Source: a virus
Length of the DNA: 35,614 nt
Direction: 5' to 3' (one strand)
Virus record (IMG/VR): IMGVR_UViG_3300022752_000203
Span: 1 to 35,614 of that record
Part shown: piece by piece, positions 825 to 27,854 of the stretch
Numbering within the stretch: position 1 is the stretch's first letter
How the letters are laid out: the number at the start of each line of letters is the position of its first letter
Notes under the pieces: generated by a model
Database searches by the model: none
Seen by the model: the letters and a program-made list of their open reading frames with translations, nothing else
Told to the model about the DNA's origin: nothing
Position numbers and translations under genes: made by a program

Positions 825-853
825 TTGACATACCCCCCCTTTTGTCCTATAAT
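825..853 (+). promoter_or_regulatory. Consensus sigma-70 promoter
   Basis: TTGACA (825-830), a 17-bp spacer and TATAAT (848-853) match the sigma-70 consensus at every hexamer position with optimal spacing. Transcription should start near 860 and run rightward. The first plausible start codon is at 1496, so the transcript would have an unusually long leader, or an untranslated RNA is made. Palindrome copies 3 and 4 lie within that leader. Confidence 0.85.
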
Positions 854-2597: not shown

Positions 2598-2692
2598 GTA
2601 AGCAACAACACGACAACATCTTGCAGTGCGTAGTTTATGTGGCCATACTAGTAGTGCTGTGCCTCGACATGTTCGTGTGGCGTCCGGGTTGA
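2594..2692 (+). CDS. 32-aa single-span membrane protein
   Basis: The frame encodes 32 residues, with a short polar N-terminus (MSKQQHDN) and then a hydrophobic stretch ILQCVVYVAILVVLCLDMFV long enough to cross a membrane once. It starts on an ATGA overlap with the preceding gene, the coupling used throughout this cluster. Its last codons overlap the -35 box of the promoter at 2689. Small membrane peptides of this kind occur in phage early regions; no specific role can be given. Its reality rests on the overlap and hydrophobic pattern only. Confidence 0.55.
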   Translation: MSKQQHDNILQCVVYVAILVVLCLDMFVWRPG

Positions 2693-2717
2693 CACCCCAT
2701 TGTCAATCTGATATAGT
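2689..2717 (+). promoter_or_regulatory. Sigma-70 promoter with inverted repeat at the -35 box
   Basis: TTGACA (2689-2694), a 17-bp spacer and TATAGT (2712-2717, 5 of 6) form a strong promoter for the gene at 2799. The -35 box is the left arm of an inverted repeat TTGACA-CCCCAT-TGTCAA (2689-2706), which could be an operator. Palindrome copy 5 lies about 33 nt into the transcript. Confidence 0.8.
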
Positions 2718-2798: not shown

Positions 2799-3698
2799 AT
2801 GAGTTTCGCAATCAACATGGACAACTTCAGTGTGTCCAAACTGTCCTCCTCTGCCCTCATTGTCAATCTGTCCCTGTCCGTATGGACTGGGCGCAAGTTG
2901 GACAAGCGTGTCAGCGAGGAAGTGGATCAGCAGAACAGCACCAAGACCCGTGCTGGCAACTACCACAAGAACCTGCTGGCAGGGTCTGGCAAGCTGACCG
3001 AGATCACGAAGGTGGCGAATGCCATCCGTTCGTGGCTGTATGGCGTAACCCAGCCGTGGGGCGACAACGGCGACCGCATCCTCAACATGTCTTACTTCAT
3101 GGAGTTCAAGGACAGGCTCACTGACTACGAGCAGCAGTTCGCATCCAGCGTCAACACCTTCCTGAGTGACTACGACACACTGGTGTCTGCTGCTGCCTTC
3201 CAGTTGGGTGACTTGTTCAACCGTGAGGACTACCCGACACGGGAGTCCATCGAATCCAAGTTTGCCATGCGCTACAGCATGACCCCACTGCCTCAGTCCG
3301 GGGACTTCCGTGTGGACATTGGTGAGGATGGCCTACGTGAATTGCAAGCTCAGTATGAGTCTGTCTTACAGCAACGTGTTACTGGTGCTATGACCGAGGC
3401 GTGGGAGCGGCTGCACGACTGCCTGACCCGCATGTCAGAGCGGCTGACCGACGACACCGATGCCAACGGTGACCCCAAGCGCAAGATCTTCAGGGACTCT
3501 CTTATCGAGAATGCCGTGGAGGTGTGCGGCCTGTTGAAGTCATTCAACATCACTAACGACACACGTATGGATGAGATGCGCAAGCAGTTGGAGGATGCCA
3601 TGCGTGGTGTGGATGCCGACTCTCTGCGTGACAGCGACATGTTGCGTGAGCAGACCAAGCGCAAGGTGGACAGCATACTGTCTAAGTTTGAAATGTAA
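2799..3698 (+). CDS. Unknown 299-aa protein of the MoxR-VWA module (DUF3150-like, tentative)
   Basis: This soluble, mostly helical protein of 299 aa begins MSFAINMDNFSVSKLSSSAL and contains repeated charged helices (for example around RLTDDTDANGDPKRKIFRDSL and RDSDMLREQTKRKVDSILSK). No catalytic motif is visible. In other phages a protein of this size and style (annotated DUF3150 in my recollection) precedes a MoxR ATPase and a VWA protein, as it does here, so it is probably the third partner, perhaps an adaptor or substrate. The promoter at 2689, a palindrome at 2757 and a GAAAGG ribosome site control it. The 89-bp gap to the ATPase gene holds another palindrome, so the genes may be separately tuned. 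Confidence 0.75.
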   Translation: MSFAINMDNFSVSKLSSSALIVNLSLSVWTGRKLDKRVSEEVDQQNSTKTRAGNYHKNLLAGSGKLTEITKVANAIRSWLYGVTQPWGDNGDRILNMSYFMEFKDRLTDYEQQFASSVNTFLSDYDTLVSAAAFQLGDLFNREDYPTRESIESKFAMRYSMTPLPQSGDFRVDIGEDGLRELQAQYESVLQQRVTGAMTEAWERLHDCLTRMSERLTDDTDANGDPKRKIFRDSLIENAVEVCGLLKSFNITNDTRMDEMRKQLEDAMRGVDADSLRDSDMLREQTKRKVDSILSKFEM

Positions 3699-3711
3699 TT
3701 TGTTGGGGCAT

Positions 3712-3728
3712 CTTCATACCGTATGAAC
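3712..3728. promoter_or_regulatory. Degenerate CTTCATACnGTATGAAG palindrome, copy 6
   Basis: 16 of 17 positions match (last base C instead of G). It is in the 89-bp gap between the gene ending at 3698 and the AAA+ ATPase gene at 3788. Every copy with good arms lies in the left 3.8 kb of the window, outside genes. Confidence 0.65.
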
Positions 3729-3787
3729 TTGCCCTGTTCTTTTCCCTAGTGTTTAATCCGTTTCCCTTAACCAACTGAAAGTAAATC

Positions 3788-4873
3788 ATGTACAACTCAA
3801 TCACTCTCAAGCAATGCGCTGACCTTATCGCAGCAGTCGGCGACCAGCAGACCGTCCTAGTGCAGGGCGAGATGGGTATCGGCAAGTCCGCTATCCTCAA
3901 GATGCTCCAGAACTCTACTGCCTACCCTCAATTCAAGGGTGCGTTCTTCTGCTACGTGGACATCACTACCAAAGATGTTGGTGACTTCCTTGTTCCCAAG
4001 ATACGTGACATTGACGGTGTAGAAGTGTGCTCATTCATACCCAACGAAGAGTTCGGGTTCCACTTCAAGGGCCGCAAGGTTGTGATGATGCTCGATGAGA
4101 TCGGCAAGGCGCGGGGTGGTGTACTCAATGCCTCACTCAGGCTGATGAACGAGAAAGCATTGGGCGTGAATGTACTGGAAGGTGTCGTGTTCGGTACGAC
4201 TAACCTGTCTGTCGAGGGACTGGGTGACAACATGCCGCCGCATGCCCTCAACAGGTTGACCCGTGTGAAGGTCGGCAAGACTGATGCCCGGACATGGATC
4301 GAGGACTACGCCATACCTATGGGTATCAACCCGGTCATCATTGGTACGGTGGCTGAGTACCCCGAGATGTTTGCATCCTTTGAGGACTACGAGAAGCCTG
4401 AGCAGAACACGTACATCAATGACCCCCGCACTGTGCGTGGTGCTGTTGTGACACACCGTTCCATGGAGCGTGCGTCCTATGTGTATGAGCGTACCCGGAT
4501 ACTGGGTGATGACGTGATGTGCCATGCACTGGCTGGCACTGTGGGTGAGAAGGCGATGCACAACATCTTGACGATGGACAAGATGAACAGCCAGTTGACC
4601 CCATGGGATGAGTTGATCAAGTCCCCCGAGACTGCCACTGTGCCCTCATCTGCTGCTGCGTCCTGCATGCTGGTGAGCAAGGCTGTACAGCGCATCGACA
4701 AGGACAGTATCAGCGCATGGATGAAGTTCCTGAACCGCATCCCCAAGGAGGCGCAGGGCTTGTTCGCCCGTAGCGTCATGTCAGACAAGTGCCCCAAGCG
4801 TGACGTGGCTGCACGCAACACCGAGTTCGCTGTATGGGCAGCAGCTAACAACTTCCTGTTCGCCAAGAAGTGA
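3788..4873 (+). CDS. MoxR-type AAA+ ATPase
   Basis: This 361-aa protein has Walker A GEMGIGKS at residues 27-34, Walker B VVMMLDE ending at D103-E104, a sensor-1 like segment FGTTNL and a following NRLTRV that could supply an arginine finger. This is the compact AAA+ layout of MoxR/NorQ/CbbQ ATPases, which work with VWA-domain partners to remodel or activate target proteins. The VWA partner is encoded two genes downstream (5061). The start follows CTGAAAGTAAATC. The stop overlaps the end of a GTG codon, but the next gene probably starts at 4882. Family assignment is firm; the cellular target is unknown. Confidence 0.9.
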   Translation: MYNSITLKQCADLIAAVGDQQTVLVQGEMGIGKSAILKMLQNSTAYPQFKGAFFCYVDITTKDVGDFLVPKIRDIDGVEVCSFIPNEEFGFHFKGRKVVMMLDEIGKARGGVLNASLRLMNEKALGVNVLEGVVFGTTNLSVEGLGDNMPPHALNRLTRVKVGKTDARTWIEDYAIPMGINPVIIGTVAEYPEMFASFEDYEKPEQNTYINDPRTVRGAVVTHRSMERASYVYERTRILGDDVMCHALAGTVGEKAMHNILTMDKMNSQLTPWDELIKSPETATVPSSAAASCMLVSKAVQRIDKDSISAWMKFLNRIPKEAQGLFARSVMSDKCPKRDVAARNTEFAVWAAANNFLFAKK

Positions 4874-4881
4874 GGTGTGTC

Positions 4882-5058
4882 ATGCCCAAATACGATGTAA
4901 CTATTCGCGCCATCATTACAAAGACCTACACGGTCGAGGCAGATACTGAGAACGAGGCTATTAGTAATGTCCATGAGACATTCACTGTCCAAGCAGACGA
5001 TACCCCTGAGAACTACGAGCAAGATGTTTTATCAATCCAAAAAGTAAAAGGAAAGTAA
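4882..5058 (+). CDS. DpnD/PcfM-like small protein (tentative)
   Basis: This 58-aa protein starts at ATG 4882, with GAGG at 4872-4875 as ribosome site. An in-frame GTG at 4870 has no comparable site. The pattern PKYDVTIRAIITKTYTVEADTENEAISN matches that of the gene at 2394 and recalls DpnD/PcfM-like proteins. It is embedded between the AAA+ ATPase and VWA genes, which would make it co-expressed with the module, but nothing shows a direct role. Confidence 0.65.
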   Translation: MPKYDVTIRAIITKTYTVEADTENEAISNVHETFTVQADDTPENYEQDVLSIQKVKGK

Positions 5059-5060
5059 TC

Positions 5061-6242
5061 ATGTCATTCATTACACAATCACGGTCGCTAACACCGACAC
5101 AGAAACTGCAACGTGCCCACGTCGAGTTGATGGGGCACAAGGACACCATGGAGTACGCCGCTGTGTTCATGGTCGGGAAGTACACAGTGTCCGACAAGGT
5201 TCCTACTGCCCGTACCAACGGCATCGACTGCGAGTACGGCAATGCCTTCATCAAGGACATGGTTGACTCTGACTTGCGTGGCCTCATCATGCATGAGAAT
5301 CTGCACAAGACATTCCAGCACATGTTCCTGTGGCAGCACTTGTACCAAGAGGATGGCAAGACCGCTAACATGGCATGCGACTATGTGATCAACATCATCA
5401 TTGACGATCTCAACAAGGCTACCAACGGGTTCGTCACACTGCCCAAGGGTGGGTTGCTTGATCGCAAGTACGCTGGCATGGACTCGCAGACTGTGTACAA
5501 CTTGTTGCGACAAGACAAGGAAGATGGTGACGGCGATGGTGGTGATGGTGATAGCCTCGATGACCATGACTGGGAGTCGGGCAAGGACATGTCACAAGAA
5601 GAGATCGAGCAGGTGACCAAGGACATCAACCAAGCTATCCGTCAGGGTCAGCTTATGGCAAGCAAGCTGGGTGGCAATCAGTCCCGTGCCTTGGGTTCTC
5701 TCATCGAGCCGAAGGTTGACTGGCGTGAGCAGTTGCGTGATTTCGTATCGTCTACCGCTGTGGGCAAGGACATCTCTACGTGGCAGCGTGTTAACCGTAG
5801 GTGGTTGCAGCATGATGTGTACATGCCCTCTACTGTCACCGAGACGATTGGTCGCATCGTGGTTGCCCCCGACATGTCAGGGTCTACGGAGCCTTACGTG
5901 TCCAAGTTCCTGTCCGAGGTGCAGGGCATCTGCCTCAACGTCAAGCCCGAGAAGGTTGACCTCATCTACTGGGACACCGAGGTATCACGACATGAGGTGT
6001 ACACACAGGAGAAACTTGGTACGTTGGCATCATCCACTAAACCTGCGGGCGGTGGTGGCACTGCCGTAAGGTGCGTGTCTACGTACCTCAAGGACAACCA
6101 GATCAAGCCCGAGTGCGTGGTCATCATGACTGACGGGTATCTCTACGGTGACTGGGGTACATGGTCTGCCCCTGTGCTGTGGGTCATCGTAGGTGGTAAC
6201 AAGGTTGTCCCTCCTGTAGGTTCGGCCATCTACCTTGACTAA
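5061..6242 (+). CDS. VWA protein with N-terminal metallopeptidase-like domain
   Basis: The protein is 393 aa. The N-terminal half carries HENLH at residues 78-82, an HExxH zinc-binding motif, followed by ACDYVINIIIDD, where such families place further active-site residues. A linker rich in Asp/Gly (about residues 153-175) leads to a VWA-like domain with DMSGS at 271-275, the first MIDAS metal-binding loop, and a later MTDGYLYGDW segment. This matches the DUF2201-type arrangement of a putative metallopeptidase with a VWA-like domain. With the MoxR ATPase at 3788 it forms a predicted ATP-driven complex. Peptidase activity is inferred only from motifs. The start follows AAAAGGAAAGTAATC. Confidence 0.85.
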   Translation: MSFITQSRSLTPTQKLQRAHVELMGHKDTMEYAAVFMVGKYTVSDKVPTARTNGIDCEYGNAFIKDMVDSDLRGLIMHENLHKTFQHMFLWQHLYQEDGKTANMACDYVINIIIDDLNKATNGFVTLPKGGLLDRKYAGMDSQTVYNLLRQDKEDGDGDGGDGDSLDDHDWESGKDMSQEEIEQVTKDINQAIRQGQLMASKLGGNQSRALGSLIEPKVDWREQLRDFVSSTAVGKDISTWQRVNRRWLQHDVYMPSTVTETIGRIVVAPDMSGSTEPYVSKFLSEVQGICLNVKPEKVDLIYWDTEVSRHEVYTQEKLGTLASSTKPAGGGGTAVRCVSTYLKDNQIKPECVVIMTDGYLYGDWGTWSAPVLWVIVGGNKVVPPVGSAIYLD

Positions 6243-10899: not shown

Positions 10900-12719
10900 T
10901 GAAACTTATAACACTGGACTTTGAGACGTACTACACCAGCAAGGGCTTGGGGTTCAAGACCCAAACGACTGAGGAGTATGTACGTGATCCGCACTTTGAA
11001 GTGATCGGGGTGGCGGTCAAGGTGGGGGATGGTGAGACTACGTGGCGCACGGGTACGCACGCGCAGATCAAGGCATTCCTCAACACGTTTGACTGGGCCA
11101 ACAGCATGGTGGTTACGCACAATGCGATGTTCGACATGTCAATACTGAACTGGCACTTCAGTATCAGGCCCAAGGCTATCGCAGACACACTGAGCATGGC
11201 ACGTGCCATCAACGGCATTGAGGTAGGCAACAGCCTCAAGAAGCTGGCAGAGTACTACAAGCTAGGCGTCAAGGGTACTGAGGTGGTGGATGCCATCAAC
11301 CTGTGCCGTGAGGACTTCTCAGAGAAACAGCTTGCGAAGTATGGGCTGTACTGCATCAATGACGTTGACCTGACATACGACTTGTTCCTGACGCTACTGC
11401 CCATGTTCCAGAGGGTAGAGTTGAAGCTGATCGACCTGACGATCCGTATGTTTACAGAGCCAGTCCTCCGCCTCGATGAATCTATCTTGCGGCAACATCT
11501 TATAGAGGTGAAGGATCGCAAGCAGCGCCTGCTCGATGAATGTGGTGCGGACATCTCTGACCTGATGTCCAACCAGAAGTTTGCTGAAGTTCTGCGTGGG
11601 CTAGGTGTTGACCCGCCTATGAAGATCAGTGCGACTACGGGTAAGCAAGCGTTGGCGATGGCGAAGTCTGACGAGGGGTTCAAGGCTTTGGCCGAGCACC
11701 CTGACGAGCGCGTACAGACACTTGTTGCTGCGAGGTTGGGTAACAAGACTACGCTGGAGGAGACTCGCACCGAGCGCCTCATTGGGATTGCGGGAAGGGG
11801 GACGATACCTGTTCCCCTCTCCTACTACGCTGCACACACAGGGCGATGGGGCGGGTCGGACAAGATCAACTTCCAAAACTTTCCCTCACGTGGTGAGAAC
11901 GCAGGGAAGCTGAAGAAGGCTATCCTTGCCCCAGAGGGTCACGTGATCATTGACTGCGACTCTGCACAGATTGAGGCGCGGGTACTTGCATGGTTCGCAG
12001 GACAAGATGATTTAGTGGAGGCATTTAAAAATGGCGAAGACGTATACAAGATCATGGCATCTGCTATCTACCAAAAGAAGCGGGAAGAGATTACTACGGC
12101 TGAAAGATTTGTTGGCAAGACCACCATTCTTGGCGCGGGTTATGGCATGGGCAGTGCGAAGTTCCAAGCGCAACTCAAGGCTGTCGGCGTGTCGATCAGT
12201 GCAGAGGAGTCTGCAAGGATTATCTCTACCTACCGTGAAACCTATCCTAGTATCCCCGCCCTATGGAAGTCCGGTTCCACGGCGATTGACGCTATGAGCA
12301 AGGGGCGATACGCCCCATGGGGTAACGGGTGTATCAGCATTGGTGTGGAGGGAATCCTCATGCCAAATGGGTTGTATCAAAGATACCCAAACCTGCGAAA
12401 AGTACAAGACAAAGATGGCAAAACCCAGTACATTTATGACTCACGCAAAGGGCCAGTGAAGCTGTACGGCGGCAAGTTAACAGAGAACATTTGTCAGGGC
12501 TTGGCGCGTTGCATCATCGGTGAACAACTTATCAAGATCAGCAGGAAGTACCGCGTTGTACTCACTGTTCATGACGCTGTGGCATGTGTTGCACCAAAGG
12601 AAGAAGCGCAAGAAGCTATGGAGTACGTGATGGAGTGCATGCGGTTTGTACCTGCTTGGGCAGAGGGCATTCCGTTGAACTGCGAAGCAGGTGTGGGAGA
12701 TAGTTATGGCGACTGCTAA
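10899..12719 (+). CDS. DNA polymerase, family A, with 3'-5' exonuclease domain
   Basis: The 606-aa protein begins with an exonuclease motif (LDFET, D7/E9) of the DEDD type and continues into a family A polymerase. Motif A is DSAQIEAR with D354 and E359. Motif B is R403-x3-K407-TTIL-GAGYG with Y415. Motif C is VHDAV with H558-D559. At the position equivalent to E. coli Pol I Phe762 this enzyme has Leu411, and the acidic residue after the motif C Asp is replaced by Ala560. It lacks a 5'-3' nuclease domain, as is usual for phage replicative enzymes. It replicates the phage genome with the primase-helicase at 18736. The start overlaps the upstream stop by one base. Confidence 0.95.
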   Translation: MKLITLDFETYYTSKGLGFKTQTTEEYVRDPHFEVIGVAVKVGDGETTWRTGTHAQIKAFLNTFDWANSMVVTHNAMFDMSILNWHFSIRPKAIADTLSMARAINGIEVGNSLKKLAEYYKLGVKGTEVVDAINLCREDFSEKQLAKYGLYCINDVDLTYDLFLTLLPMFQRVELKLIDLTIRMFTEPVLRLDESILRQHLIEVKDRKQRLLDECGADISDLMSNQKFAEVLRGLGVDPPMKISATTGKQALAMAKSDEGFKALAEHPDERVQTLVAARLGNKTTLEETRTERLIGIAGRGTIPVPLSYYAAHTGRWGGSDKINFQNFPSRGENAGKLKKAILAPEGHVIIDCDSAQIEARVLAWFAGQDDLVEAFKNGEDVYKIMASAIYQKKREEITTAERFVGKTTILGAGYGMGSAKFQAQLKAVGVSISAEESARIISTYRETYPSIPALWKSGSTAIDAMSKGRYAPWGNGCISIGVEGILMPNGLYQRYPNLRKVQDKDGKTQYIYDSRKGPVKLYGGKLTENICQGLARCIIGEQLIKISRKYRVVLTVHDAVACVAPKEEAQEAMEYVMECMRFVPAWAEGIPLNCEAGVGDSYGDC

Positions 12720-13479
12720 CAGACCATACGGCAGAACACTGACCGGGCACACCGTCCCCTACGGTGCTCTTGTTGGTGCGAGTAAGGAACTTAAAAGTGC
12801 GTACTACCACTACGGCTACCTGCGTGATGAGGATATGCCTGAGTTGCCATGCGTACCCCCTGAGGGAGAGTGTGTTGATCCCATAGAAGAGGTGTACAAA
12901 AAGGATGTTGCTAGACTTATCGAGGAAGCATTGGAGGACGTTACCCCAAGGCAAAAGGCGGTGTTGTGCTTGCGGTTTGGGATTGGCCTGACACAAGACT
13001 ACACATTGGAAGAAGTTGGTGTGGTGTTTGATTTATCCCGAGAGCGCATTAGGCAGATCGAAGCCAAGGCAATGCGCCACATCAAGCACCCGTATCGCGT
13101 ATACAAACTTGCAGAGTTGGTTGGGCAATACGTAACAACCACAGAGAAGAAAGCGGAGATAGAGGCGAAACAAACGCAATGGGAAAAAGAACGGGCAAGA
13201 GCCGAAGAGCAGAAAGAAGCACGGGCACAATTTAAAATTAATTCCAAACTGAGAGAAGAACAACGTATACGAGAAGAAGAACAACGTATACAAGAAGAAG
13301 ATAAAAAGTTACGTGCAAAGTGGGATGAGCTTTACCCAATGGTGTCCGACACTGATTGGGTAGAGCATTTGAAGACAGAGAACCCTGAGATGTATCAAGA
13401 GTTGAAATACATGGTTGGGGACATTTGGGGTAAGAACGCAAGGCAAATTTGGGACATGCATACAACGGAGAAAAAATGA
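12706..13479 (+). CDS. Sigma-70 region 4 protein with C-terminal coiled coil
   Basis: This 257-aa protein has, at about residues 78-130, a clear sigma-70 region 4: TPRQKAVLCLRFGIG...YTLEEVGVVFDLSRERIRQIEAKAMRHIKHP. Region 4 contacts the -35 element and the RNA polymerase beta flap. No region 2 (the -10 binding and melting domain) is seen; the first 75 residues do not resemble it. After residue 145 follows a long charged helix with a heptad repeat (EEQRIRE/EEQRIQE), ending in a WVEHL...MYQELKYMVGDIWG segment. ATG 12706 is favoured over GTG 12691 by GGGAGAT spacing. It could redirect or modulate host polymerase for later phage genes; that role is inference. Confidence 0.85.
   Translation: MATANRPYGRTLTGHTVPYGALVGASKELKSAYYHYGYLRDEDMPELPCVPPEGECVDPIEEVYKKDVARLIEEALEDVTPRQKAVLCLRFGIGLTQDYTLEEVGVVFDLSRERIRQIEAKAMRHIKHPYRVYKLAELVGQYVTTTEKKAEIEAKQTQWEKERARAEEQKEARAQFKINSKLREEQRIREEEQRIQEEDKKLRAKWDELYPMVSDTDWVEHLKTENPEMYQELKYMVGDIWGKNARQIWDMHTTEKK
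13253..13295 (+). repeat. 21-bp tandem repeat within coiled coil
   Basis: CAACGTATAC recurs at 13261 and 13282, exactly 21 bp apart, flanked by AGAAGAA tracts. The unit encodes one heptad (EEQRIxE), so slippage adds or removes whole heptads of the coiled coil without changing the frame. Confidence 0.75.
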
Positions 13480-17966: not shown

Positions 17967-18449
17967 ATGGATAGGCAACAACTGAGAGATCAGTGGCGGC
18001 ACACTATTGATGACGAAGGTGGGCATTGCCCCGTGTGTGACCGCTGGGGTCGTGTTTACGCCCGTGGTATCAACAACACTATGGCGAGAGCATTGATATG
18101 GCTATACCAACAAGCTGGTGACAAAGATGGTTGGGTAGATGTTCCTACAACCGCGCCTCAATGGTTGGTACGGTCTAACCAACTAGCTACTTTGCACTGG
18201 TGGGGTCTTGTAGAACGCAAAAGCAAAGACGAAACGCACAGAGCAAAGTTCTCAGGCATTTGGCGGTCTACAAAACTAGGCAGAGAGTTTGCCCAAGGCG
18301 AAGTTCGCGTACCCAAAAAAGTATTTACGTACATGGGTAATGTCGAGGGTACAAGCACTGAAGAAGTTAGCATAAGCGAGTGCTTTAAAGAGGTATTTAG
18401 TTACGAAGAAGTCATGGGCAAATATGAACAACAGAGGCTATTCTCGTAA
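17967..18449 (+). CDS. Phage protein with N-terminal CxxC and winged-helix-like core
   Basis: This 160-aa protein has C21-x2-C24 (GHCPVCDRWGRVY) near the start. The middle (ARALIWLYQQAGDKDGWVDVPTTAPQWLVRSNQLATLHWWGLVERK) has the helix-helix-wing order of winged-helix proteins. The segment GIWRSTKLGREFAQGEVRVPKKVFTY follows. Proteins with this signature recur in phages but have no known function. ATG 17967 is preceded by AAAGGAG at 17954-17960. It overlaps the next HTH gene by 26 bp. Confidence 0.75.
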   Translation: MDRQQLRDQWRHTIDDEGGHCPVCDRWGRVYARGINNTMARALIWLYQQAGDKDGWVDVPTTAPQWLVRSNQLATLHWWGLVERKSKDETHRAKFSGIWRSTKLGREFAQGEVRVPKKVFTYMGNVEGTSTEEVSISECFKEVFSYEEVMGKYEQQRLFS

Positions 18450-18672
18450 GTTTGTAGATGCGAACAATAAAGCAGATTCATTCCACGTGGGTGTGCAACT
18501 TGGTCGCATTTGCATTCGACGTGACATCCCGGTACAGGATGTAGCGGAGCACATAGGCGTATCACGGCAAGCCATTTACACGTGGTTCTTAGGGAAAGCA
18601 CTGCCCCACCCGCCGAAGCGCAAAGTATTATGGGAACTGCTTGATCGTCTAGCGGCAAACACCGCAATTTGA
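18424..18672 (+). CDS. Helix-turn-helix regulator, Cro/XRE-like
   Basis: The 82-aa protein contains HVGVQLGRICIRRDIPVQDVAEHIGVSRQAIYTWFLGKALPHP, a Cro/C1-type HTH (helix, DVAEHIGVS, recognition helix RQAIYTWF). It is a single-domain DNA-binding protein and a candidate for recognising one of the palindromes in the left region, though nothing links it to a specific site. Its start lies inside the preceding gene, so translation is coupled. A small inverted repeat follows at 18685. Confidence 0.82.
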   Translation: MNNRGYSRKFVDANNKADSFHVGVQLGRICIRRDIPVQDVAEHIGVSRQAIYTWFLGKALPHPPKRKVLWELLDRLAANTAI

Positions 18673-21828: not shown

Positions 21829-21856
21829 ACCCCGACTTCGGTCGGGGTCTTTTTTT
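21829..21856 (+). terminator. Rho-independent terminator, TTCG loop
   Basis: ACCCCGAC-TTCG-GTCGGGGT is an 8-bp stem with a UUCG tetraloop, followed by TC and seven T residues. It ends the plus-strand unit. It overlaps the 3' end of the minus-strand gene at 21855. On the minus strand no T tract follows the stem, so it should act mainly on rightward transcription. Confidence 0.95.
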
Positions 21857-24800
21857 AATCGCCGTATGCTTCTGCGGCGGCTTGCTTCAAGTAGGGAGCC
21901 AGCTTACGGTCAAGCTGTACACCGTGGTGCATCTCATTTGTAATACGCTCCCGCGCTTTCACTGACTGCGTGATTGTCTTCTCACTGATCTTTAGGTCAG
22001 GGTACTTAGCACCAAGCTCAAACAACTTCTCACGCGCCTCCATCATGCCGTCGGCGTCACCCTCACGCATCGCCGCATAGTATTTCTTCAGCGCGTTCTT
22101 CTCTATAGCCTTGATGGCCTTACCCTTCTCGGTCATGTACGCATTCTCTTCGTACTGCTTCATCAAGTCAGCAGGAGCAAAGCCAAGCACTTGCATAGCA
22201 GCGTTGTATCCGTTCACATCCCCAACCGCATCACCGCGCAACGTGTTAGCCCCTTCGATTGCGTAGCGACCACCTTTAAAGACGTTGCGCAGACCCACAG
22301 GGAGCATAGCCTCAATACCACGCTCATACTGACCTTCAGCAATCAAGTCTTTTGCACGGAACAAACTGTCAGCAATCGAGTACGGCGCACCCAATGCGGT
22401 TTCAAGAATTTGGGACAAGGCACTTGCATCTGCCTTGCTACCCTTTTGCTCACGCCACAACAAGTCAGTCCAGCCCACACGGTCGGCAACGCTCAGATTA
22501 GTGAAGTAATTGACTGGGCCTTTGAACGGGAAGTCACCAAGGTATTCCCGCATGACGGTATCAAAGTCATCGTCATCTTTGCCTTGGAACATGTTATAGG
22601 CCAGCGCAGCAACCCAATACAAGGGTATACCCTTGACACCTGCAAAGAGCGCGGACATGCCGTAGATGCCAAGAAGCTGCCTACGAGCCGCCTTGATTGC
22701 TTCAAGCTGTTCACCCGTTGCGCCTTTGGTGGGGAGCGAACGGATCATGGTGTCGAACAACATGTAGTACATGCTGAACGCAAACCGCTTGAACACCATC
22801 AAAACTTTTCCTATGTCACTCTGACCGAGGCTGGGGCCGGATAACGTGCTACCTGCACCGTGCGCATACTCTACGAGCTTTAGAGCTTTATCAATTGCTT
22901 TGGTTTGCTTCTCAGCTTCGCTCAGGTTGGAGTTCTTGAGTTTTCCCATCTCCAAGTCATAGGCGGCAACGGCTGTGATCTCACGGTTCATGCGCTCGGC
23001 ATGGTGGAACATGAAAGAACTTACCAACGCAGTTTGGCGCATAAGTTTGTTTGCGTTGCCGTAGCCCGATGAGTTGTTGTTCTCTGAACTTAGTGCACTC
23101 CGTGCGGTAGACGTGGCCAGTAGACCACGGGCTTTCATGGCTTCAATGAGACCCGCATACTTTGTGGCTTTACTGTCCCCCCTGTTGATTAGATTCTCAA
23201 TGGAGGTCATGGCCTTTTGATCACTGACTTCGCCTGTCAACTCAGTAACCTTCCGTGACAACCCACTGCTTGTGTAGAGTTTCAGGGCATTCTTCAAGGC
23301 CACATAGGACTCTTTGAACCCATACTCACCACCAAGTTGCGGGAAGACAACCAACGGAGTTTGCAAGGTGTTAACAGCCGCAGAGGATACGTTACCAGCG
23401 AGGTTGTAGTAGAACGCACCGGAACTTGCAAACTGCGACCAACCGGACAGGGTAGGTTTCATTGCAAATTCGCGGCGACCTTCAAACTCTTTAATGAGTT
23501 CTGTCCCATAGGTATTGACATCCCCCCGTGCGGTATTAGCCGTTGCAACCATTTCTGTCACAAGACGCTGTAGTTCAGGGCCGTACTGCATACGCCCCAA
23601 CTGACGTGCGGTGTTACTGCTTACACGGTCAAACACAAAGGCGGCATTGTCGATGTAGCCACCGATACCAGTACGTTTTTGACGGCCCTTTAAGATGCTG
23701 GCTTCAGGCATGGCCTTAACAACAAGTTGTATCAAGTCGTCAATAGCATCTGTACCGGCACCGCTGTCTTTCATGATCTTCATGATTTCAGCCAACATAG
23801 TGCCAGACGGTACGGTCTTGGTTGTCAGTTGATCCGCACGGGAGTAAGCGTCAAAGTTTGTAGCACCGCTGGCTTCTAGTTTCTTACGCGCAAAGTCACG
23901 TTCAGCCTCGGACTCAAAGGCTTCTTTCTTAGTGTCAGTACCCACGTCATACTGCAACCAGAACGGCCCTTCGCGGAACAGCGGCGCATAGTGGTCAACA
24001 CGTACAGTACTCAACTCAAACAAAATCTTCTGGTAAGCAGAGGCAGCCTGTGCTTTGTCACCCACCGTAGCCCCGATGTTGCGCTCAAGCGAGATTAAAA
24101 ACTCTGCATCAAGTTTTTTGTAGGTGGCAAACAGATCGCGGTATAACTTCTGGCCCGTTGGTGTAAGTTTGTTAAATCTTGCACTGAGTTGCCTCCACTC
24201 GGCTACCTTTGTGGGACTGCCTACGTACTTGCTCACGTCTGCGTATGGGTTTACGTCCACACGAGTAGCGTCATGTACCAAGGTAGACCACGCCTGATAC
24301 TCAGGAGCCTGTCGAAATTCAGTTAAGCGGTCATGTAACGGGTGCATGGCTTCAAGCATCTTCTCTTGATAACCCGCCATCTCTTCAAGGGTGGAAGCAA
24401 AACGAGTTGCGGTATTGCCCAAATATTTGCTACCAGCTTCACCCAAGGCAGACAAGTTCAATGACCTGTACATCATGTACCGACCTGTACGCCCAACCTT
24501 TTCTGCGGCCTTCCAAAACCCAACAGCCTTCTCACTGTTCATGATGGGTTGCTTGCGTATGGCCTCCCCCGCCTTTGCAAATATTTCTTGCACAACGTTG
24601 GGGTTGTGCAGGGACTGCGCGTACAAAGTTTCACCCGTGCGTGTCTCAGGTGGTGGGCTGATGATGTCGTTGAGCATGCGGTCAATCGCATCCAGCGCAG
24701 TCTTATATTTAGGGGGCAAGCGTAACAACTGACGCACGGCGTTAACCAAACGCTCCCAACCAGTAAGTTTCTCACCAGTAGGCTTGAACTCTTTCAGGCG

Positions 24801-27800
24801 GTTGCGGAACGCATCATTGCTCCACGCCTCGCCTGCAAACTCTTGTATATCTTGCGCACCATAAGTTCCTTCAGTGCCTTTCTTCATTTGATTGAAGAGG
24901 GTCATGACCTGACGGGTCACGGGGTGTGAAGGGTTGTCCAAGGTGTGAGACATGGTTGCATGTGAAGACTCATGCAGGATCTCATACTCAGTAGCGCCAT
25001 CACGCAGGTAGACGGTGTTGGTCTTTGGATCGAACATGGACTTCTCAGCGCCATATACGAGGTTCACATTGCCAACAAGTTTGGATAAGTTCTGTGCAAA
25101 GAGTTCTGCTGTCTTAGACGACCCACTGTCCGCCAGCCCTTGTAAAGCACCCGCCAAGTTGTTGTTGGCAAGCTGTTGGAGCACCGCCGGGTGAGCCTGT
25201 GTATGTAATGCGGCTAGGTCTGCATCAGCTTTATAGCCTGTGGTGTCAGTGTCAGCGTTATCGTCTAAATTGTCGTAGGGGTCTTGTTCAGCCAACTGCC
25301 GTGCAAGACGTTGCATTTGAGCTTTACGTTTGCCCGCTTCAGTTTTTGTACCTTTAGCGTCTGCAATTTCTTCTTCTGTGGGAGCGTACTCGCCTTGCGC
25401 TTCAGCGGCGGCAGATTCTTCGGCCACTTGCGTTTTTACACCCTTGCTGATGTTTTGCTGCCTCTGCTGCTTCGCTCGTGCTGTGTTAGAACGTCTGGCT
25501 TCTTTTGTGTACAGGGCAATCTTCTGGTCTAAGAATGCAACAGATTCAGGGGACAAGTTGGCACGTGCCCATGCCTCGGCATTCTTGGCGTGGATACCAC
25601 CTTGGCCTTTATAGAATGCGGCTTCTGCTTCAGTACCAAATGTTGGCTCGGGGGTTGCGGCAAATGTCCCCGGTTTGCTAACGCTAGGCAACGTCATCTT
25701 AGAGTTGCGGTAGGCAGTGGGTTGTAGCACCAAGTCGTTGGCAATCGAATCGAGCGCAAGTTCAGGGGCTACCTTGCCAAAATAGGCACGGGCATCTGTT
25801 GCTTGTGTGTCGAGCTTAACCCCGCGCCGACCAAGTTTCTCGTTGATTACGGGCAGTTCTGCGGACAGATCAGGGCGGTCTAAAACGCTTCGCGGGGCAG
25901 CGGGGGCTTCTTGTCTTTGCGTTTCTGCTTGCTGGGTTTGAGGGGGCGCAGTGCCAAGGTCTACTCCTGTTGGTTCAGTTAGTGCAGTGGGCTGTTGTTC
26001 TTCTCGTACAGCAGTGTCTCCAACATCTTGCTGAGTAGAAACATCTCCACCTCGTTCAGGTGCCGCAATGGTTGGGGCAACTCCAGCGGCAACGGGTTCG
26101 CTAACCACGCTAGGGCTTCCTCCACTTGGGGCGGCGTCAGGTCTTGTAACATCAGGTGCTCCAGATTGCGATTCAGCACGGGCGGCAATAACTTCTTGTG
26201 GGTCAAACTTGCTAACTAAAGCGTTGTAAGCAGCTTCATCAACCTTGCCTGTGAAACTAGGGTTCTCTAATGTCTGGATGAGTTGGCGGCGACCATCTAC
26301 GGTATCAAGGTCTGTGCCTAGTAGGCTCTTACCAACTTTAGTACGGGGAGAAATATCAAGGCTTTTTAACGTGTCCACAGTGACAGGATCACCGGGTTTG
26401 AACATACCGCCAGTGCCGGGGGTAGGCTGCTGTGTAGCAAACGCTGACCCCGCCTGTTTATTACGCAAACCTTTGTCGTACTCAGCTTCAACCTTATTAA
26501 GTTCGGCTTGTGCTTGCGCCTTTGCTTTAGTTTCATCTTCAGCAATTTTGGCTTTATTTGCTGCAATAGCGGCATCTATATCCCCGTAAATACGTTTATA
26601 CGCGCCGGGATTTTCTTTTATGTTATCTGCACGCTCCATAAGTGCTGCAATAGATACCGCGCCTACATCTTCAGGCATTTTGGCAAACGCAGCAGCTAAA
26701 TCAGCTTCACGTTTAGTGCGGTCATTTGCAATCTGTGCATCATACTCAGCAGACTTTTCTGGAGTGAGCGTACCCGCAGCGGCTTCTTGAGCGCGTAGTT
26801 GATTGACGTATGCTTCGGCTTCTTGGGCAGTAGCAAATTCTTTACGGGCAGTCAGACCTTGGCTTGTGCCAGTTGCAGTACCAAACACACCGCCACCGAT
26901 TGCACCCTTAACGAACGACTCTTTGTAACGCTGGATGTTCTCAGGAGAGAGCATGCCCTTGGTGCTACCTGCAACTTGTTCTGCTGCGGCATTGATAGCC
27001 TCTTGCGCGGCTTCGGTCAGCCCTTCAGTCCCTGCGGATATTGCAGCTTCTTTGGCAATATACTTCCACACCTTCGGTGCAGCACCGGATTCTTTGGCCA
27101 ACTTCTCAACGACCTTCAACTTGCCGTAGCCACCAAGTTCCCCTAGCAATTTGCCGGGGACGATGGTGTCCAAGACAGAAGAGATGCCCCCCGCAAGCGC
27201 GGCAATCCCCGGCTCCATCTCGCCAGTTTCTCGGTAGATGCTCTCAAACACTTCGGGTGCGTTTTGTGCCAACGAGCCAAGGTACACACCACCATACATT
27301 GCGCGTTTACCAGCAACCTGACCAGCTTGTTTAGCAGCGGTCTCTGCCACTGCCATACCAGCGCGAGACAAAGGGCCAACCGCTTGCGCAGCCCTCATAG
27401 CACCAGCACTAGCCATCCGTGCGGCTACAGCTTCAGCACCCACACCGGGGATCAGCGCAGTCAAGGCTGTTGGGCCAAGTTCACCAATAGTTTCAGCACC
27501 GTATTGCAGGGCTTCGTATGGGTTATCAATCTCAGTGTATGACTTGAACTGTGTGGGGTACTTGGCTTCTAACGCTTGGCGTGAGACATCAGCTTCCTCC
27601 ATCTGACGTTTGGCGTAGTCATCAAAGCCAAGTTTAGACGCGCCCATGGCGGGGAGGATATCTCCCAGAGCGATACCTGTTTCTCCCATGCCACGCATGA
27701 AACCACGCTTGAGCAGCGTACCAATCCCTACCTCTGGTTTTGGCAGCTTGAAATCGTACTTATCTTGAAGCGCAGATAGTTGCGCTTGAAACTGCTCAGA

Positions 27801-27854
27801 CGTTAGATCATCCCGAAAGTTAACGGGGCCGAGCTTTGGGAGATCAATGATCAT
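21855..27854 (-). CDS. Large polyvalent virion protein with zincin motif
   Basis: The protein is 1999 aa. The N-terminal region is helical, with Ala/Gly-rich hydrophobic stretches (TALTALIPGVGAEAVAARMAS; GAIGGGVFGTATG). A long disordered, Pro/Gln/Glu-rich part covers about residues 560-680. HESSH at 961-965 (YEILHESSHATMSH) is an HExxH zinc metallopeptidase motif. The C-terminal third, with FMFHHAERMNREITAVAAYDLE and later AARRQLLGIYGMSALFAGVKG, resembles large polyvalent protein-associated domains (LPD38-like in my recollection). Such giant proteins are packed in the capsid and enter the cell with DNA. Minus-strand virion operon, last gene; 2 bp from the upstream gene. Start MIIDLP follows TAGGTG. 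Peptidase activity is predicted only. Confidence 0.85.
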   Translation of the reverse strand: MIIDLPKLGPVNFRDDLTSEQFQAQLSALQDKYDFKLPKPEVGIGTLLKRGFMRGMGETGIALGDILPAMGASKLGFDDYAKRQMEEADVSRQALEAKYPTQFKSYTEIDNPYEALQYGAETIGELGPTALTALIPGVGAEAVAARMASAGAMRAAQAVGPLSRAGMAVAETAAKQAGQVAGKRAMYGGVYLGSLAQNAPEVFESIYRETGEMEPGIAALAGGISSVLDTIVPGKLLGELGGYGKLKVVEKLAKESGAAPKVWKYIAKEAAISAGTEGLTEAAQEAINAAAEQVAGSTKGMLSPENIQRYKESFVKGAIGGGVFGTATGTSQGLTARKEFATAQEAEAYVNQLRAQEAAAGTLTPEKSAEYDAQIANDRTKREADLAAAFAKMPEDVGAVSIAALMERADNIKENPGAYKRIYGDIDAAIAANKAKIAEDETKAKAQAQAELNKVEAEYDKGLRNKQAGSAFATQQPTPGTGGMFKPGDPVTVDTLKSLDISPRTKVGKSLLGTDLDTVDGRRQLIQTLENPSFTGKVDEAAYNALVSKFDPQEVIAARAESQSGAPDVTRPDAAPSGGSPSVVSEPVAAGVAPTIAAPERGGDVSTQQDVGDTAVREEQQPTALTEPTGVDLGTAPPQTQQAETQRQEAPAAPRSVLDRPDLSAELPVINEKLGRRGVKLDTQATDARAYFGKVAPELALDSIANDLVLQPTAYRNSKMTLPSVSKPGTFAATPEPTFGTEAEAAFYKGQGGIHAKNAEAWARANLSPESVAFLDQKIALYTKEARRSNTARAKQQRQQNISKGVKTQVAEESAAAEAQGEYAPTEEEIADAKGTKTEAGKRKAQMQRLARQLAEQDPYDNLDDNADTDTTGYKADADLAALHTQAHPAVLQQLANNNLAGALQGLADSGSSKTAELFAQNLSKLVGNVNLVYGAEKSMFDPKTNTVYLRDGATEYEILHESSHATMSHTLDNPSHPVTRQVMTLFNQMKKGTEGTYGAQDIQEFAGEAWSNDAFRNRLKEFKPTGEKLTGWERLVNAVRQLLRLPPKYKTALDAIDRMLNDIISPPPETRTGETLYAQSLHNPNVVQEIFAKAGEAIRKQPIMNSEKAVGFWKAAEKVGRTGRYMMYRSLNLSALGEAGSKYLGNTATRFASTLEEMAGYQEKMLEAMHPLHDRLTEFRQAPEYQAWSTLVHDATRVDVNPYADVSKYVGSPTKVAEWRQLSARFNKLTPTGQKLYRDLFATYKKLDAEFLISLERNIGATVGDKAQAASAYQKILFELSTVRVDHYAPLFREGPFWLQYDVGTDTKKEAFESEAERDFARKKLEASGATNFDAYSRADQLTTKTVPSGTMLAEIMKIMKDSGAGTDAIDDLIQLVVKAMPEASILKGRQKRTGIGGYIDNAAFVFDRVSSNTARQLGRMQYGPELQRLVTEMVATANTARGDVNTYGTELIKEFEGRREFAMKPTLSGWSQFASSGAFYYNLAGNVSSAAVNTLQTPLVVFPQLGGEYGFKESYVALKNALKLYTSSGLSRKVTELTGEVSDQKAMTSIENLINRGDSKATKYAGLIEAMKARGLLATSTARSALSSENNNSSGYGNANKLMRQTALVSSFMFHHAERMNREITAVAAYDLEMGKLKNSNLSEAEKQTKAIDKALKLVEYAHGAGSTLSGPSLGQSDIGKVLMVFKRFAFSMYYMLFDTMIRSLPTKGATGEQLEAIKAARRQLLGIYGMSALFAGVKGIPLYWVAALAYNMFQGKDDDDFDTVMREYLGDFPFKGPVNYFTNLSVADRVGWTDLLWREQKGSKADASALSQILETALGAPYSIADSLFRAKDLIAEGQYERGIEAMLPVGLRNVFKGGRYAIEGANTLRGDAVGDVNGYNAAMQVLGFAPADLMKQYEENAYMTEKGKAIKAIEKNALKKYYAAMREGDADGMMEAREKLFELGAKYPDLKISEKTITQSVKARERITNEMHHGVQLDRKLAPYLKQAAAEAYGD

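Follow-up and report, generated by a model that had tools for sequence, protein, structure and literature searches.

A phage locus joining a MoxR-like ATPase and a zincin-VWA protein to a DUF3150-like protein, with predicted phage-specific operators

Introduction

The closest described relatives of the locus studied here are phage gene pairs for a MoxR ATPase and a protein in which a zincin domain is fused to a VWA domain, for which a role in virion assembly has been proposed (Iyer et al. 2021, PMC7824862). We examined such a locus at positions 2799-6242 of a freshwater phage sequence, IMG/VR virus record IMGVR_UViG_3300022752_000203, whose whole analysed stretch of 35,614 nucleotides is called the window below. 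The locus shares with the described pairs (PHROG 1297 and 1314; gp24 and gp25 of phage N4) the AAA+ family, the zincin-VWA fusion and the adjacency of the two genes, and differs from them in having a syntenic third gene, for a DUF3150-like protein, and predicted operators between the genes. In N4-like phages the pair lies in a non-structural gene block. MoxR and zincin-VWA genes form a common uncharacterised module of lytic phages, N4 gp24/gp25 included; the pair is widespread in phages and the module is not special to this one.

Cellular systems of similar design are NorQ/NorD, CbbQ/CbbO and RavA/ViaA, which, like the locus in the window, combine a MoxR ring with a partner carrying a VWA domain and its metal ion-dependent adhesion site (MIDAS), and whose substrates are specific cellular enzymes. 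NorQ/NorD, CbbQ/CbbO and midasin provide the model of a MoxR ring as motor and a VWA MIDAS as grip (PMC9976466, PMC13036017, PMC4660213, PMC8837202). No zincin domain is described for NorD, CbbO or ViaA in the literature consulted, which was partial in coverage, whereas the VWA protein of the window has one. Ternary conflict systems likewise unite MoxR, VWA and a third conserved component (Kaur et al. 2020, PMC7159879); that component is VMAP, iSTAND, FtsH or a beta-propeller, whereas here it is DUF3150-like, the VWA protein has a zincin domain and the carriers are phages and plasmids. The predicted operators resemble the repressor sites (stoperators) of Cluster A mycobacteriophages, which are also numerous, dispersed and phage-specific (PMC9283540, PMC6550527). 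Stoperators are asymmetric, whereas the sites in the window are symmetric 15-bp palindromes, with a probable regulator outside Pfam and PHROG families and no integrase in related contigs. The MoxR/zincin-VWA pair is known already; what is new here is the partnership with DUF3150 across phages and plasmids and the specificity-switching operator and regulator set, neither of which was found in the literature searched (partial coverage).

Proteins of the module

The locus consists of four open reading frames (ORFs) at the coordinates given by an earlier sequence-only reading. In the window it belongs to the rightward replication arm, ahead of the genes for DNA polymerase and replication.

2799-3698, plus strand: DUF3150-like protein, 299 amino acids (aa), recurrent third partner of the MoxR/VWA pair
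3788-4873, plus strand: MoxR-like AAA+ ATPase, 361 aa, recognised by PHROG 1297 and motifs
4870-5058, plus strand: DpnD/PcfM-like protein, 62 aa, start overlapping the ATPase stop
5061-6242, plus strand: zincin-like domain fused to a MIDAS VWA domain, 393 aa, recognised by Pfam and PHROG 1314

The 361-aa protein belongs to PHROG 1297 ('ATPase', E=1e-37). Since all its matches to the Pfam AAA models and to bpMoxR fell below cut-off, the name MoxR-like is based on PHROG 1297, the motifs and the VWA partner. The motifs comprise Walker A GEMGIGKS (K33), Walker B MMLDE (D103/E104), sensor TTN (N139) and arginine finger R156, all invariant in 54 phage sequences; K33, D103, N139 and R156 are also unvarying in 59 sequences that include plasmid and N4-like relatives.

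The 393-aa protein matches PF13203 ('putative metallopeptidase') in its N-terminal part (E=4e-19, 69.8 bits against a cut-off of 23.2) and the VWA-like family PF09967 in its C-terminal part (E=1e-10, 42.1 bits against 26.4), and is of the DUF2201 type; it also matches PHROG 1314 (E=3e-81). The label 'HNH endonuclease', attached to PHROG 1314 and to many phage records, is unsupported by these domains. The HENLH motif (H78/E79/H82) and the MIDAS residues (D271-S273-S275, T334, D358) are present, and D107 is a candidate third ligand of the zincin-like domain; D107, D271, S273 and D358 do not vary in 59-60 sequences, plasmid and N4-like relatives included. The AlphaFold2 (AF2) model (predicted local distance difference test score, pLDDT, 76) shows a mixed helix/strand N-terminal domain followed by a VWA fold, with HExxH within helix 69-84 and D107 in a later helix, 99-120. 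Structure comparison identified the VWA fold (Z up to 12.9, root-mean-square deviation 2.7 over 147 residues), and the Foldseek matches include the midasin MIDAS and NorD of the NorQD complex; these matches cover the VWA half, with the VWA domain filling the list and the zincin half barely probed. Catalysis is supported by the conservation of HExxH over phages and plasmids, and on sequence grounds we regard the case for the zincin domain cutting protein in this phage as evenly balanced. The sequence-only reading had placed a MoxR ATPase beside a VWA protein with HENLH, which PHROG 1297, PF13203, PF09967 and the motifs bear out; the residues it had singled out (H78 and E79 in the VWA protein, K33 in the ATPase) lie where it had put them and, like H82, are conserved.

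The 299-aa protein, an unnamed neighbour in that reading, is indeed present and can now be called DUF3150-like by homology to an annotated phage DUF3150, that of Synechococcus cyanophage MinM2 (28.7% identity, 95% coverage, E=7e-25). Its structural model also matches an annotated DUF3150 in BFVD (E=7e-18). We write 'like' because the PF11348 (DUF3150) profile score lies under the Pfam gathering cut-off (E=2e-4, 20.9 bits against 24.9); the profile searches that had been suggested thus succeeded for PF13203 and PF09967, which pass their cut-offs, but gave a sub-threshold match for DUF3150. The AF2 model (pLDDT 77) consists of a beta-hairpin and long helices and had no match in the PDB at E<0.001, which does not show a new fold. 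W29, D35, K57, R77, R93, G137, P146 and R283 are invariant from phage to plasmid.

The likeness of the 62-aa protein to DpnD/PcfM held up in part, with a PF14207 score of 23.0 bits that fails the gathering cut-off of 25; its place as a recurrent part of the module did not. It had no tblastn match in related loci L001-L129 and is not a conserved module member.

Distribution in phages and plasmids

When viral contigs were scanned with each of the three large proteins, 129 loci were recovered, many of which share a contig; among them the order DUF3150-MoxR-VWA is kept down to about 50% identity. MinM2 differs from the window in having the order MoxR, DUF3150, VWA. Among 50,697 GenBank phage records searched at E<=1e-5, 718 contain a relative of the VWA protein, 69 a relative of the ATPase by single-sequence search and 3 a relative of DUF3150, counts biased towards the protein that is best conserved. 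The primase-like protein marks Rhizobium phage RHph_TM3_14A (24.7% identity) as a cultured relative; this phage has MoxR and VWA, with DUF3150 not detected. Pseudomonas phage Rollin, which the primase-like protein also places nearby, has neither the module nor recurring palindromes in the 49 kb examined. A clade of loci (L111, L114 and L128, for example) carries MoxR and VWA with no recognisable DUF3150 within the stretches compared. In this clade, a SprT-like zincin (HELVH/HELCH) is encoded upstream of MoxR (L111:3193-3855, L128:4262-4849).

Plasmid records contained 41 with DUF3150 and 53 with VWA. On a B. ambifaria plasmid, the run ATPase-DUF3150-VWA is flanked by a PRTRC cluster on one side and type IV secretion genes on the other; a Rhodovastum plasmid has the run MoxR-DUF3150-VWA, and a Simplicispira plasmid has the three genes with the ATPase further upstream and other genes between. 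The catalytic motifs are intact in all three examples. A single plasmid DUF3150 used as query against bacterial contigs found two loci only. The MoxR/VWA pair repeatedly has DUF3150 as its third partner, on proteobacterial plasmids too, and the term DUF3150 occurs in no paper of the literature searched (partial coverage).

Promoters, palindromes and a probable reader

Promoter and palindrome control of the module had also been proposed, and both kinds of site are found. The promoters and predicted operators are as follows.

825-853, plus strand: sigma-70-like promoter TTGACA-17-TATAAT, 12 of 12 consensus bases (consensus match only)
2689-2717, plus strand: sigma-70-like promoter TTGACA-17-TATAGT, 11 of 12 consensus bases, TG before the -10 (consensus match only)
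108-122, no strand: palindrome TTCATACGGTATGAA, predicted operator
418-432, no strand: palindrome TTCATACCGTATGAA, predicted operator
943-957, no strand: palindrome, predicted operator, inside a 23-bp perfect inverted repeat
1337-1351, no strand: palindrome TTCATACCGTATGAA, predicted operator
2758-2772, no strand: palindrome TTCATACTGTATGAA, predicted operator, core ending 27 bp before the DUF3150-like ATG
3713-3727, no strand: palindrome TTCATACCGTATGAA, predicted operator between the DUF3150-like and MoxR genes

The promoter at 2689-2717 lies upstream of the DUF3150-like gene; because promoter-like sites in the window are no more numerous than in shuffled sequences, its assignment depends on position and match quality. 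The motif TTCATACNGTATGAA occurs in six exact copies between window positions 108 and 3727 (starts 108, 418, 943, 1337, 2758 and 3713), and at up to 2 mismatches there are 7 matches against 0.14 expected.

In most related phages, too, a palindrome recurs at corresponding positions; its sequence is uniform within each phage but varies from one phage to the next. The classes with a 1-base centre are TCATAC, TCATAT, TCCCAC, TCGTAC, CCCTAT, CGGGAC and TTAGAC, and those with a 2-base centre are CTAGAC and GGGTAC. Searches of long contigs showed that the palindromes are confined to one region of several kb. The DUF3150-like ATG is preceded by a palindrome at 11-40 bp in 43 of 49 loci; for MoxR the figure is 30 of 57 and for VWA 27 of 55, counts that are not independent since the loci include close relatives. 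In seven loci the palindrome lies inside coding sequence, with FIPYE for TCATAC and FVPYE for TCGTAC. MinM2 (locus L131) has a palindrome of its own, GTTCAG-N-CTGAAC, in eight copies around the MoxR/DUF3150/VWA module. An RNA hairpin in place of a double-stranded operator is disfavoured by the symmetry at the two bases flanking the centre (CNG, TNA), because an RNA loop cannot pair there and because all copies within one phage are identical. A fixed promoter element is not indicated, as no strongly conserved flank extends beyond the palindrome; a partition site of a phage-plasmid was rejected, with no ParA found in 15 related contigs, and an Rfam search gave no match.

The palindromes are probably read by a protein of about 170 aa encoded at the start of the palindrome region, to judge from sequence comparison. 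This protein, with 39 distinct ORFs among the loci examined, matched no family in Pfam or PHROG. Between contigs G002 (TCCCAC) and G007 (TCATAC), the proteins of the replication arm are mostly 94-99% identical, whereas the ~170-aa proteins are only 65% identical. A segment resembling a recognition helix, together with its C-terminal flank, tracks the palindrome class. Within it, residue 104 is R in 19 of 19 proteins of the TCATAC and TCGTAC classes, K in 9 of 9 of TCCCAC and Q in 4 of 4 of TCATAT, where both this residue and the segment boundaries were chosen after inspecting the data. The regulator changes in step with the palindrome, having R or K where the palindrome has G and Q where it has A. 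TCATAC and TCGTAC differ by one base per arm, and in the group holding both closely the helix reads VYL versus TYL. Assigning class by nearest neighbour, the segment is right in 33 of 36 cases and the rest of the protein in 30 of 36. Palindrome class changes 11 times on the MoxR+DUF3150 tree and 7 times on the reader tree. G002 has two regulator paralogues, the second of the TCATAT type, and its palindromes comprise the TCCCAC set plus three TCATATNATATGA sites, of which one closely precedes its DUF3150-like gene. A phage-specific operator set that covaries with its regulator, as the predicted operators and probable reader do here, is a trait of phage immunity repressors.

Window position 1 aligns to position 4000 of the closest relative, L033, 77 bp past the reader stop, so the reader gene is expected just off the left end of the window. 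In the stretch of MinM2 examined, no homologue of the ~170-aa reader was detected. Another candidate reader, an 82-aa Cro-like helix-turn-helix protein (window 18424-18669), was rejected since its predicted recognition helix is near-constant over palindrome classes; the protein as a whole is strongly conserved.

Proposed function and alternatives

Our reading, to which we give slightly less than an even chance, is of an early operon controlled by a DNA-binding regulator particular to the phage; its products would form a machine for remodelling, and perhaps cleaving, a protein of the host or of a defence system. The three large proteins most likely work as one machine. The MoxR ring would hydrolyse ATP as the motor, and the VWA protein would dock on the ring and grip the substrate through its MIDAS metal site. 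The helical DUF3150-like protein may be a third subunit or a substrate adaptor, a role suggested by its presence with the other two in two different gene orders and in phages and plasmids alike. The zincin domain would cut, or would formerly have cut, the gripped protein, as its fusion to VWA suggests. Position and promoter point to early transcription from a host-type promoter, and the 15-bp palindromes would be bound as double-stranded DNA by the ~170-aa phage regulator; we infer both that it binds as a dimer and the sign of regulation. The machine would then disable or reshape its target. Since conjugative and other plasmids carry the triad too, it most likely performs a task needed by any incoming replicon, which narrows the function to something such replicons share and makes it testable in N4. 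We assign a host or defence protein as target tentatively, as a little less probable than not, and the sequence-only reading went too far in holding that a phage must direct the module at some host or phage target: the machine may instead chaperone a protein of its own element or serve virion assembly.

Several observations weigh against the proposed host-directed machine. Among the 59-60 sequences, HExxH is broken only in the distant relative L072 (ANITMR instead), which keeps the VWA MIDAS, so peptidase activity is dispensable there. DUF3150 is missing near MoxR-VWA in the clade L111-L128, in the N4-like VBP47 and in RHph_TM3_14A, and it is therefore not obligatory. For the regulator code, the statistics become modest once relatedness is removed: the supported independent pairs on the tree number 4 and 2, all in agreement, with p of 0.125 and 0.5, and 3 of the 36 nearest-neighbour assignments by the regulator segment fail. 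The literature searched held no published function for any relative of the phage module, and a PADLOC search returned no match.

A serious rival, which we nevertheless hold to be rather unlikely, is that the module is a chaperone or maturase for the phage's or plasmid's own machinery, such as a replication or transcription complex. MoxR/VWA would then insert metal or remodel the complex, leaving the zincin fold as a relic that is structural or binds metal. NorQ/NorD and CbbQ/CbbO are dedicated remodelling or metal-insertion chaperones (PMC9976466, PMC13036017, PMC4660213), the module precedes the DNA polymerase and replication genes, and L072 keeps the MIDAS without HExxH. Yet HExxH is otherwise retained over very diverged phages and plasmids, and a comparison that was not exhaustive revealed no obvious single replication protein common to module carriers. 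For group 2.2 jumbo phages the proposal was virion assembly in which structural proteins are processed by proteolysis, by analogy with the MoxR-VWA pair on which tail assembly of Acidianus two-tailed virus depends (PMC7824862). We consider it quite improbable as a general role, because the triad is found on conjugative plasmids, which build no virions. In the window, moreover, the module has its own promoter and sits in the rightward replication arm, whereas a virion structural gene and a gene for a large polyvalent protein are found in the leftward arm, and phage KP8 has the pair surrounded by nucleotide-metabolism genes and rII-like genes. We favour a host or defence target over virion assembly on account of the plasmid copies, the company of replication genes and the host-type promoter. 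An exclusion or defence module, protecting the infected cell or plasmid host from other phages, would fit the resemblance of MoxR, VWA and a third protein to the ternary conflict systems of multicellular bacteria (PMC7159879) and the carriage by mobile elements. This too is improbable: a Pfam scan of module and neighbours found no VMAP, iSTAND, FtsH or beta-propeller partner, with bpMoxR below cut-off, and PADLOC was negative. Nor is there any sign of long residence in the cell, since tyrosine integrase, serine resolvase and ParA (PF00589, PF00239, PF13614) were absent from the 15 related contigs, which span 50-74 kb and are possibly incomplete.

A bolder form of the host-directed reading, which we think unlikely, is that apparently lytic phages control a takeover operon through a new DNA-binding family with a simple residue-to-base code, and that the operon's DUF3150/MoxR/zincin-VWA machine, found on conjugative plasmids as well, uses ATP to extract a host protein of defence or control and then cleaves it. 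If so, regulator specificity would have been switched repeatedly, as in immunity repressors, so that related phages avoid cross-regulation. Among phages that are otherwise nearly identical, the palindromes and their probable regulators offer a natural set of changes in specificity, which opens to direct test the question of why operators diversify in a phage that has no recognisable lysogeny genes.

Other features of the window

The motif TCGATGCGGGCCG occurs at window positions 22, 144 and 348, in the poorly coding first 400 bases, and is present in 44 related loci; it is a possible origin or processing element. A 1999-aa protein with LPD39 (21855-27854, minus strand) resembles, at its C-terminus, very large DarB-like antirestriction or polyvalent proteins and is a candidate for injection with the DNA. 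The product of 12691-13479 contains sigma-70 region 4 (E=1.4e-16) and little else recognisable, and may be a phage sigma-like factor.

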